The notes under the pieces: model-generated | Databases searched by the model: none | Seen by the model: the letters and a program-made list of their open reading frames with translations, nothing else | What the model was told of the DNA's origin: nothing | Shown: in pieces, positions 1,495 to 25,798 of the stretch | Position numbering within the stretch: position 1 is the first letter of the stretch | Layout: each line of letters opens with the position of its first letter | Virus record (IMG/VR): IMGVR_UViG_3300047678_000835 | Coordinates: 1-41,269 of that record | Origin: a virus | Reading direction: 5' to 3' (one strand) | Length of the DNA: 41,269 bases | Made by a program: the position numbers and the translations under genes

Positions 1495-1932
1495 TCAGGC
1501 GGCCTTGATCTGCTTGATGAATTGCTCTACCTGGTCGCTCTGGTCGGCGGCTTCACGTTTGAGCAACAAATCGTACGCGGCGCAGATCAGGTTGGCCCGC
1601 GCGTCCGGCGGGACAGTGAGACTTATTCCCGCCAAACCCCGTTCGACGCCGTGCACGGCCTGGCGCAGCAGCTCGCGGTCTGCCAGCGGCTTGTCCGGGT
1701 TGGGTGTGGGCGGCAGCGCGTGCAGGCGCATCGGGCCTTCGCCGGTCAGCAGCCAGTTCAGGTTCACGCCGGTCTTGGCGATGGCGGTAAGCACCTCGCC
1801 GCCGGGCACCGTGCGGCCCTGTTCGTACTTTCTGTACTGCCCCGCATCGACGCCGATTTGCATGGCAAAGGCGACCTGCGTTGCATTCAAATTTGCACGC
1901 CACTCCTTCAGCCGCAGCCCGATGTCGCTCAT
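1495..1932 (-). CDS. Cro/CI-type (XRE) phage repressor
   Basis: A 145-residue protein. Residues 5-62 form an XRE helix-turn-helix (LRLKEWRANLNATQVAFAM then VDAGQYRKYEQGRTVP, ending in NLNWLLTGEGPM), typical of phage CI/c repressors. The C-terminal half is helical and lacks an obvious Ser/Lys LexA-type peptidase dyad, so RecA-stimulated self-cleavage is not indicated. It is transcribed leftward, opposite the transposition genes, as Mu c is. Its start codon lies inside the first of two perfect inverted repeats at 1931-1994, which suggests autoregulation. There is no strong Shine-Dalgarno sequence. Confidence 0.88.
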   Translation of the reverse strand: MSDIGLRLKEWRANLNATQVAFAMQIGVDAGQYRKYEQGRTVPGGEVLTAIAKTGVNLNWLLTGEGPMRLHALPPTPNPDKPLADRELLRQAVHGVERGLAGISLTVPPDARANLICAAYDLLLKREAADQSDQVEQFIKQIKAA

Positions 1933-22458: not shown

Positions 22459-22998
22459 ATGGCCTTCCACATCGACATTCAGGACGCCCGGCTGCGCGAC
22501 GCGCTGGCCGCGTTGCAGGCCGGCATCGAGAACATGGGCCCGGTGCTGCGACCCCTGGGCGAGGACATCACCGAGCGCGCCAAGGCACGCTTCGGCACCG
22601 CCACCGCGCCGGACGGCGCACCCTGGGCGCCGAACAAGCCTTCGACGCTGGAGCGCTACGTGGCCGGGTTCAGCGCGAACTTCTTCAAGAAGAAAGGCGG
22701 GCTGACCAAGGCCGGCGCGGCCAAGTTGGCCAACAAGCGCCCGCTGGCCGGGCACAGCGGCGACCTGGCGCGGCAGATCACCTACCGGGTGGAAGGCAAC
22801 GCGCTGGTGGTGCAGGCCACGCCGAAGTACGCGGCCATGCAGCAGTTCGGCGGCACCAAGGCGCAGTTCCCGAACCTGTGGGGCGACATCCCGGCGCGGC
22901 CGTTTCTGCCGGTGATGAAGGACGGCACGCTGTACCCGACCGAGCAGCAGCAGATGGTGTCGGCGATCGAGGATTACATCGCGGGGTTGCTGGCATGA
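22459..22998 (+). CDS. Phage virion morphogenesis protein (Mu G-like)
   Basis: A 179-residue protein with an AAGGAG site (22443-22448). It matches the phage virion morphogenesis / tail completion family: IDIQDARLRDALAAL, DITERAKARFGTATAPDG-x-PW, KRPLAGHSGDLARQITY, and the strongly conserved YAAMQQFGGTKAQFPNLWG followed by PARPFLPV. In Mu, G is a tail completion or head-tail connection protein. Its stop codon lies at the edge of the leftward terminator at 22998-23022. Confidence 0.9.
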   Translation: MAFHIDIQDARLRDALAALQAGIENMGPVLRPLGEDITERAKARFGTATAPDGAPWAPNKPSTLERYVAGFSANFFKKKGGLTKAGAAKLANKRPLAGHSGDLARQITYRVEGNALVVQATPKYAAMQQFGGTKAQFPNLWGDIPARPFLPVMKDGTLYPTEQQQMVSAIEDYIAGLLA

Positions 22999-23022
22999 AA
23001 AAGCCCGCACTTCGGCGGGCTT
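22998..23022 (-). terminator. Rho-independent terminator of the leftward operon
   Basis: GCCCGC (23003-23008) pairs with GCGGGC (23015-23020), extended by AA/TT, around a CTTCG-type loop; read leftward it ends in TTTTT. It closes the operon 24281-23128. Read rightward the T-run is poor. Confidence 0.75.
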
Positions 23023-23127
23023 CTGAAATCGGGCCTAGGAGCGTTCGGAAAGGCCGGGTGTGTGGGGTAGGGCCAGCTCGTGATTTCGGGGTCAAGGTAA
23101 TGCGTTACATGACCCCGTTACTTTGGC

Positions 23128-24038: not shown

Positions 24039-24281
24039 TCAGTTCATCTTCATGTTGTCAGCGACCGCGCGTTCAACCGTGGGCAGGTTGTCCAGCACGA
24101 CGGCGCCGAGCAGATCGATCAGCGAGCCGAGGTCGCTGGCGGTGACGGCGTTGAGGTCACTCGGCCGGCCGAGCGAGATGATCAGGTCGCTGAGCGCGTT
24201 GAGCGCCTGGCCGGCGCGGCGGATTTCGTAGAGATGGTCGTCGGCGGCTTGCCGGGTGACAGGGGCGGTCTGGGTTTGCAT
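24039..24281 (-). CDS. Small amphipathic-helical moron protein
   Basis: An 80-residue protein; ATG 24281 is chosen for the AGGAA site nine bases upstream, although the frame stays open to 24356. Two long amphipathic helices (DDHLYEIRRAGQALNALSDLII and DLGSLIDLLGAVVLDNLPTVERAV) make up nearly all of it, similar in size and style to small phage morons. Function unknown. The upstream 24282-24610 region contains the folded element but no other gene. Confidence 0.6.
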   Translation of the reverse strand: MQTQTAPVTRQAADDHLYEIRRAGQALNALSDLIISLGRPSDLNAVTASDLGSLIDLLGAVVLDNLPTVERAVADNMKMN

Positions 24282-24344
24282 GGCATCGGTTCCTGGTTGA
24301 ACAGAGGAACCACCCGTTGCGTGTCTGGCGCATTGGGTGGGCGG

Positions 24345-24482
24345 GGTGTTAGACACATCGAACCAGCGATGCCCCAGACCTTACGGCGCTGGGCACCCCG
24401 CCCGAAATCGCAAATTCGGGCATGGCAAAGGCCTCTTGACGGCGAGGCCCTGGACCGCTGGTTCTACGGTGTGTCTAGCACC
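24345..24482. other. Cloverleaf-like structured element (candidate RNA), strand unknown
   Basis: The closing stem pairs 24345-24360 with 24467-24482 (16 bp, two of them G-U type) and 24361-24368 with 24456-24463 (8 bp), interrupted only by a 3-nt bulge (CTA, 24464-24466). Inside are three hairpins: CCCAG/CTGGG (24373-24377, 24389-24393), GCCCGAA/TTCGGGC (24400-24406, 24415-24421) and GGCCTC/GAGGCC (24430-24435, 24444-24449). ACGGCG occurs in or at the edge of loops 1 and 3, and CGCCG lies just 3' at 24497. It sits between the divergent cargo operon and the head genes. Confidence 0.6.
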
Positions 24483-24610
24483 GTGTCAGATAGTAACGCC
24501 GCCAATCCCTAGTTCAAGGTTTTTTGTCTCGCGCGCGCGACGGATAGGGTTCTTCCCCAGGGGCGCCCGCCACCCTGCGCCAGCGGCATCTGGCCCGCGA
24601 CAGTGCGGCC

Positions 24611-25798
24611 ATGCCTTCCGCCGCCGCCCCTTCCAGCACCGCATCCAACAGCCTGCAGGTCTTCAAGCCTGGCCGCCACCGGGCGATGTCGGGCGTGGCG
24701 TTCGCCTTCTCCGACGAGGACGTGGCGGCCACAGCCGCTGCGTATGACCCGGCCAAGTTCCGTGCGCCGCTGGTGGTGGGCCACCCGACGGTCGAGGCGC
24801 CGGCTTACGGCTGGGTCGAGGGCTTAAGCTTTTCAGGCGGTGCGCTGGAGGCCAAGCCGGCCGACGTGGACCCGGCCTTTGCGCAGATGGTCAACGCCAA
24901 GCGCTACGCCAACATCTCGGCCGCGTTCTTCCCGCCGGACCACGAACAGAACCCGGTGCCGGGGGTTTACTACTTGAGGCATGTCGGCTTCCTCGGCGCC
25001 ACGCCGCCGGCGGTGGCCGGCCTGCGCACGCCGGTGTTCGCGACGCCCGAGAACGGCCTGGTCGAGTTCGCCGACTGGGACGACATGCAGAACGCCAGCC
25101 TGTGGCGCCAGTTGCGCGATTGGTTCATCGGCAAGTTCGGCCAGGACGAAGCCGACCGCGTGCTGCCGGGCTACCAGATCAGCGGCCTGGAGGCGGCGGC
25201 GGTGACCGCGCCGGACGACGACGGCGGCACCGAGGTCCAGAACATCAACCCGGGCTTTGCGGCCCCCACCCTGAAAACGGAGGTCACCGTGACCGAAGCC
25301 GAACGCCTGGCTCTTGAAGCCGAAAACACCCGCCTGAAGAACGAGCTGAAGGCTGCCCAGGATGCGCAGCGCCAGGCCCGCCTGGACGCACTGCACGCCA
25401 ACCACGTGGCGTTCGCCGACACGCTGGTGGCCGATGCCAAGGTGGCGCAGCTGCACGCGCCGGCCATCGTCGAGGTGCTGGACGTGCTGGGCCGCCAGGC
25501 CGAGGACGCTGGCAAGGCGATCGAGTTCGGCGCGCCGGAAGCGCGTGCGCCGCTGGCGCCCGCCCTGCAGGCGCTGCTGACCGACCTGCCGCCCCGCGTG
25601 GAGCTGGCCGAGGTGGCCACGAAGGCGCGTGCGGCCGACGACGGCACCGGCACCGGCACCGTCGAGTTCGCCGTGCCCGGCGCCATCGCCGACCCGCAGA
25701 GCCTGGTGCTGCACCGCAAGGTGAAGGCGTACCAGGCGCGGCACTCCGAAGCCTCCTATGTCGTGGCGCTGGCGGCCGTGCAAGCCGGTCAGGCCTGA
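24611..25798 (+). CDS. Mu I-type prohead protease/scaffold polyprotein
   Basis: A 395-residue protein. The N-terminal half is the Mu I-like protease: LQVFKPGRHRAMSGVAFAFSDEDVAATAAAYDP, then RAPLVVGHP and YGWVEGL, YANISAAFFPPD and YYLRHVGFLGATPPAV. Its C-terminal third (from about residue 227) is a coiled scaffold domain (ERLALEAENTRLKNELKAAQ) that can also be made separately from an internal start. It matures the prohead. No strong Shine-Dalgarno sequence precedes this ATG. Confidence 0.88.
   Translation: MPSAAAPSSTASNSLQVFKPGRHRAMSGVAFAFSDEDVAATAAAYDPAKFRAPLVVGHPTVEAPAYGWVEGLSFSGGALEAKPADVDPAFAQMVNAKRYANISAAFFPPDHEQNPVPGVYYLRHVGFLGATPPAVAGLRTPVFATPENGLVEFADWDDMQNASLWRQLRDWFIGKFGQDEADRVLPGYQISGLEAAAVTAPDDDGGTEVQNINPGFAAPTLKTEVTVTEAERLALEAENTRLKNELKAAQDAQRQARLDALHANHVAFADTLVADAKVAQLHAPAIVEVLDVLGRQAEDAGKAIEFGAPEARAPLAPALQALLTDLPPRVELAEVATKARAADDGTGTGTVEFAVPGAIADPQSLVLHRKVKAYQARHSEASYVVALAAVQAGQA
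25289..25798 (+). CDS. Internal-start scaffold protein (Mu Z-like), in frame with protease
   Basis: A GTG at codon 227 of the protease gene is preceded by ACGGAGG (25277-25283), an excellent ribosome binding site five bases away. The product would be 169 residues, starting VTEAERLALEAE, i.e. exactly the coiled scaffold part. Mu I and Z are arranged the same way. This is the best-supported internal start in the window. Confidence 0.75.
   Translation: MTEAERLALEAENTRLKNELKAAQDAQRQARLDALHANHVAFADTLVADAKVAQLHAPAIVEVLDVLGRQAEDAGKAIEFGAPEARAPLAPALQALLTDLPPRVELAEVATKARAADDGTGTGTVEFAVPGAIADPQSLVLHRKVKAYQARHSEASYVVALAAVQAGQA

Follow-up and report, generated by a model that had tools for sequence, protein, structure and literature searches.

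The question at this locus is what the strongly structured element between two head genes of a Mu-like virus is, and which strand it acts on. The window is a 41,269-nt virus record (IMGVR_UViG_3300047678_000835, 41 kb) that carries a transposase, a MuB-like gene, gp28/29/F/G, protease, and capsid genes, as judged by open reading frames and homology. The element sits between gpG, which ends at 22998, and the head protease gene, which starts at 24611, and it heads three leftward open reading frames:

24039-24281, minus strand: P0002, the 80-aa first cargo ORF, with an SD; presumed repressed gene, in the position of icd in P1
23403-24029, minus strand: P0001, a 208-aa cargo protein with homologues at the same phage locus in contigs L150, L141, and L178
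23128-23391, minus strand: cysteine-rich 87-aa ORF, the third cassette gene, with no Pfam match beyond a weak one (E 0.013)

The initial annotation described a cloverleaf at 24345-24482 and considered a regulatory RNA for the rightward capsid operon, a leader of the leftward cargo operon, or a DNA structure bound by a protein. The minimum free energy fold of the plus strand reproduced its 24-pair closing stem, 3-nt bulge, and three hairpins. The cloverleaf was much more stable than expected by chance on both strands (z of -5.0 on the plus strand and -5.4 on the minus strand, with 0 of 200 shuffles as stable), and z was -4.1 when it was folded as DNA. The ACGGCG hexamer reported for loops 1 and 3 is indeed present, within the loop or at its edge. 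No tRNA was found in the element, and an Rfam scan of the element returned no family at the gathering threshold. Directly 3' of gpG there is also a GC hairpin, AAGCCCGCACTTCGGCGGGCTT (22998-23025), which may end the upstream late transcript ahead of the antiparallel cargo.

Sequence comparisons make it very likely that the leftward cassette (P0002, P0001, and the cysteine-rich ORF) has the element as its 5' leader and that the element holds a C4-type antisense RNA. A minus-strand core match and SD targets for the leftward ORF bear out the second of the earlier readings, that of a cargo leader. The parts of the predicted leader are as follows:

24490-24517, minus strand: candidate sigma-70-like promoter, TTGAAC (24512-24517), 16 nt, TACTAT (24490-24495)
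24279-24484, minus strand: leader (precursor) of the leftward cargo mRNA, fold z about -5, including the cloverleaf
24470-24477, minus strand: a1, UAGACACA, predicted partner of a' in the precursor
24456-24464, minus strand: b1, GAACCAGCG, predicted partner of b' in the precursor
24430-24450, minus strand: hairpin 1, then UUU; P1 and relatives have a terminator-like hairpin with U5-U6 in the same place
24400-24421, minus strand: hairpin 2 of the precursor, overlapping the first bases of the core closing stem
24332-24402, minus strand: putative C4-type antisense RNA core, 71 nt, from covariance model match, RF02221 alignment, fold, and covariation
24394-24402 with 24340-24348, minus strand: core closing stem
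24373-24393, minus strand: core hairpin A, CC-GUAA-GG
24355-24372, minus strand: core hairpin B, with the b' loop CUGGUU at 24361-24366
24349-24356, minus strand: a' single strand after hairpin B, GUGUCUAA
24321-24328, minus strand: predicted a2 target, CCAGACAC, in colinear complementarity with a'/b'
24292-24298 (region 24279-24298), minus strand: predicted b2 target AACCAGG, overlapping the SD AGGAA (24290-24294)
within 24279-24298, minus strand: CGAUGCC beside the start codon (AUG, 24281-24279), a third complementary block

The boundaries 24345-24482 are incomplete, since the predicted functional core extends to 24332, the targets reach 24279, and the candidate promoter ends at 24517. A pseudoknot with a downstream CGCCG (24497-24501) had also been proposed; this pentamer falls beyond the leader, in the spacer that separates the -10-like from the -35-like box of the candidate leftward promoter, which leaves the pseudoknot unsupported. 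The promoter matches the consensus at 8 of 12 positions and is weak alone (23 of 200 shuffles did as well). Its -10 box ends 7 nt before GGTGC, and a distance of 7 to 8 nt likewise occurs in L180, L181, L183 to L186, L191, L211, and L213. The leader aligns with five Burkholderiales leaders over its full length, from a1 through the start codon, and the b-type sequence AACCAG is common to the relatives L214 and L220. The U-run after hairpin 1 is mostly lost in the window.

On the minus strand, the 24-bp stem consists of a1/b1 paired with the 3' half (b'/a') of an embedded RNA of about 70 nt. The core alone is predicted to fold into a closing stem of 9 to 10 bp, a GUAA tetraloop hairpin, a 6-bp hairpin with a 6-nt loop, and a 6-nt single strand, which is the topology of short RF02221-type RNAs (z -4.2 for the fold of 24335-24405, minus strand). 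The two folds compete in the 152-nt leader, at -78.7 kcal/mol for the long stem versus -66.7 kcal/mol for the C4 fold.

A covariance model, R2, was built from five Burkholderiales RNAs, with the window excluded. It matched the window at 24332-24402 on the minus strand with 54.9 bits, every pair being standard, against 14.6 bits for the runner-up place; the E-value of 7.7e-12 is rough because calibration was short, which leaves the bit-score gap unaffected. R1, a model made from a single sequence, matched only itself. Across 349 Burkholderiales genomes, R2 found 17 places in 6 genomes. The Burkholderiales C4-type subfamily that we define by this model is matched significantly by the window, and its link to RF02221 is below threshold.

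The strand of this match bears on the first of the earlier readings, an attenuator or other regulatory RNA for the head operon, acting rightward from the plus strand in the gpG-protease gap that opens the Mu-like protease/capsid block. The plus-strand fold is equally strong, and this gap usually spans 200 to 300 nt in relatives; however, R2 gives the plus strand at the core only 9.9 bits, SD-containing targets were found only for the leftward ORF, and the closest relative, L008 (capsid protein 77% identical), has a plain gap of about 230 nt without the element. We consider a head-operon RNA highly improbable.

The C4-type core is also favored by covariation, the check named in the initial annotation, which the fold passed. 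Among 20 members (18 distinct), 98.1% of cells were paired, and double-sided changes occurred in 14 of 21 pairs compared with 5.3 in shuffles, although not all of these counts are independent, since the alignment was shaped by the model itself and one genome supplied many of the members. None of 500 shuffles was as good, and the covariation was lost when the pairing was offset by 1 to 3 columns. The reading as a protein-bound DNA structure is not supported. The compensatory changes, which lie in the RNA core fold and not only in the long repeat, argue against a folded single-stranded DNA site for recombination or replication, whether integron attC-like or the end of a mobile element that brought the cargo. 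Such a site would fit the long inverted repeat at the edge of the inserted cassette, the stability of the DNA fold, and the presence of sRNA-Xcc1 relatives in integron cassettes of Xanthomonas (PMC12444791). Against it, a third copy of the repeat lies at the SD, and the core sites of an attC would be turned inside out, with GTTRRRY on the left and RYYYARC on the right; we regard this as the least probable reading of all. An integron attC proper, which requires RYYYAAC on the left and GTTRRRY on the right, was rejected, the window sites being reversed and imperfect.

The predicted antisense arms of the C4-type core find targets in the cargo mRNA itself. The loop CUGGUU complements AACCAG over the SD, and the strand GUGUCUAA complements AGACAC upstream of it; the a2 match is only 6 nt, and the b'/SD duplex is predicted at -19.1 kcal/mol. 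Overall, a'/b' are complementary to a2, b2, and the start region over 19 nt in three colinear blocks (p 0.002 to 0.003; 6 of 3,000 shuffled targets and 9 of 3,000 shuffled arms reached this value, and P1 itself scores 19), a score that was picked after seeing the data, an earlier two-block score having been marginal for the window (60 of 2,000). Comparison of own with foreign targets provides stronger sequence evidence. Own versus foreign matches were 15.9 versus 8.5 nt upstream (p 3.5e-10) and 13.8 versus 6.3 nt downstream (p 1.8e-9). For the window, a1 and b1 together match over 17 nt and the downstream target over 18 nt, compared with foreign maxima of 10 and 11 nt. Such fast, concerted change in all three copies is expected from antisense pairing and would not be expected from a mere DNA repeat or a terminator. 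The P0002 SD also lies inside a local hairpin (GGUUCCU..AGGAACC, 24288-24311, minus strand), a possible additional means of occluding it.

Counting against a C4-type leader are scores below both Rfam cut-offs, the weak promoter, the near-lost U-run, the 6-nt a2 match, and the unfamiliar cargo. The last four would also suit a leader that is C4-type by descent and has decayed or switched mechanism, for example, to a translational switch that works only in cis and releases no antisense RNA. Yet all core pairs are intact, and the own-target complementarity is as strong as that of P1, whereas decay would erase such matches; we judge a decayed or switched leader to be very unlikely.

The initial annotation recognized no known RNA family. 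This was wrong in kind, as fold and antisense layout are those of P1/P7 C4 and sRNA-Xcc1, although the scores lie below the Rfam cut-offs. The P1 record is annotated with promoters, targets a1 + b1, C4 RNA, targets a2 + b2, and icd-ant, and Rfam models for C4 (RF01695) and c4-a1b1 (RF03163) were found in P1; neither matched the window up to E 10. In P1/P7, C4 is processed by RNase P to an RNA of about 77 nt that represses in trans (PMC5320573). The window resembles P1/P7 in the order of its parts: candidate promoter, a1b1 copies ahead of the core in the precursor, a terminator-like hairpin, a core of three stems with b' in a loop and a' single-stranded, a2b2 over the SD of the next gene, small ORF, and larger gene. 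The predicted pairing of a'/b' with a2/b2 is likewise as described for C4 (PMC5320573). Unlike P1/P7, its a and b sequences are different, the element is set within the block of late head genes of a Mu-like phage and runs antiparallel to them, and nothing in the cargo is recognizable as icd/ant; control of an icd/ant operon, by which C4 is also defined, was not found for P0002/P0001. C4-like small RNAs of Acinetobacter baumannii share the C4 fold with the window RNA; they are chromosomal, expressed, and apparently processed from longer transcripts (PMC5320573). Unlike these, the window RNA has a predicted target in the adjacent cargo gene.

RF02221 (sRNA-Xcc1) aligned with the window core over model positions 1 to 87 of 87, with 30.3 bits and E 0.0011 in a 231-nt search, which does not reach its gathering score of 53; unlike RF02221, the window core has no internal AAUACAA..ACCC segment. 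Because both cut-offs were missed and the cargo is not icd/ant, the window RNA was not filed under RF01695 or RF02221. The antisense layout was then compared in 35 leaders, comprising 30 RF02221 hits from Burkholderiales (L180 to L209), four phage leaders, and P1. At p <= 0.05, an upstream a1b1 copy was found in 30 of the 35 and a downstream a2b2 copy in 24. In the leaders of L150, L141, L178, and L122, the 3' part of the small RNA complements both an upstream copy and a downstream copy over the SD. Comparison at this level suggests that sRNA-Xcc1 members mostly have the C4 a1b1/a2b2 layout. Rfam assigns RF02221 to no clan, and it is not in the C4 clan CL00128. No stated link between C4 and sRNA-Xcc1 was found in Rfam or in the literature searched, which excluded the main sRNA-Xcc1 paper (PMC3256417); that literature places sRNA-Xcc1 upstream of symE.

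Two genomes hold many copies: at least 10 of R2 type in G145 (L198, L200, L202, L204, and L216 to L221) and ten RF02221 copies in 2.3 Mb in G053 (L188, L196, L199, L201, L203, and L205 to L209). Some are in tandem about 600 nt apart and have related small downstream ORFs, as multiplied C4-type cassettes. In L210, a C4-type core precedes a KilA-N gene, and some 130 nt upstream of this core is a type II hammerhead ribozyme (1705-1769, minus strand; 79.8 bits, gathering 37) that might cut the leader transcript.

The cargo itself is unfamiliar. Neither P0002 nor P0001 had a family match in the searches, and neither resembles an antirepressor or icd. Single-protein scans gave no cargo homologues, the P0001 family was not found in 12 genomes, and P0002 showed no similarity to the small ORFs of L150 and L141. 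An AlphaFold model of P0001 (four sequences) was uninformative (pLDDT 49). With blastn, the element had only chance matches among phages, as did the cassette among plasmids. The plain gap of L008 indicates that cargo and element arrived together.

Mu-like phages have a cargo hotspot at the gpG-protease junction, where the gap exceeded 420 nt in 20 of 99 loci measured in relatives. Large inserts occur in L021, L041, L045, L079, L087, L115, L122, L123, L127, L146, L150, L171, L173, L178, and others, and some resemble, by eye, defense or toxin-antitoxin genes (SIR2-like, HTH + ImmA-like, Fic/Doc-like, and DUF262-like). A P0001 homologue is found at the same locus in the opposite orientation in three independent contigs, L150, L141, and L178 (L149, L176, and L177 are duplicates or near-duplicates and were not counted), where it is preceded by a small ORF and by a structured leader that passes the sRNA-Xcc1 gathering score. 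L122 has a leader of this type in the window orientation, before a P22_AR_N-like gene, and the relatives L210, L212, and L122 precede KilA-N or P22_AR_N-like genes. Folding the gpG-protease gaps of B3, RcapMu, Bhz63, PhiKM, Komp_PAO1_1, and L002 revealed no structure in common. The palindrome TTTATAAA, perhaps a late-promoter activator site, occurs in the gaps of L003, L005, and L007 (phages B3, Komp_PAO1_1, and PhiKM) and was not seen in the window gap. Short matches to GTGTC-type motifs were frequent and not specific.

By analogy with P1/P7 C4 (PMC5320573; PMC12197685), we infer how the leader would be transcribed and processed, how it would repress, and what its biological role may be. A leftward promoter would start the transcript near 24483. 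In the precursor, a1/b1 would pair with b'/a', forming the cloverleaf, and cleavage of the P1/P7 kind at the closing-stem base would probably free an RNA of about 70 nt (about 24402-24332). The freed RNA would refold, exposing b' (CUGGUU) in a hairpin loop and a' (GUGUCUAA) as a single strand. On a cargo mRNA, b' would pair with b2 over the SD and a' with a2, the a' strand giving specificity; this mRNA could be the prophage's own or that of an incoming phage carrying the same cassette. Translation of P0002 would be blocked, and with it, by coupling, that of P0001 and the genes behind. In this way the C4-type RNA probably keeps the cargo silent; the cassette would stay off in a lysogen and also in any identical phage that enters. 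If it is switched on at all, pairing of the RNA with the antiparallel late transcript would be one guess at how.

The element can thereby be assigned to a strand and given a fold and a mechanism open to testing, and it belongs to a subfamily that is missed by current Rfam models. C4-type control, known from P1 immunity, would here act on cargo among Mu-like head genes, beyond antirepressors. On balance, we lean toward the view that C4 and sRNA-Xcc1 form one superfamily of self-targeting antisense leaders, in which mobile genes (antirepressors, P0001-type cargo, and integron symE) carry a private RNA lock derived from triplication of the SD region (a1b1, a'b', and a2b2) that silences their own cassette and an identical incoming copy. 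The findings also suggest a role for the widespread sRNA-Xcc1 family, namely, that it may repress the neighboring gene via its SD, including symE in Xanthomonas integrons, the regulation of which was left open (PMC12444791).
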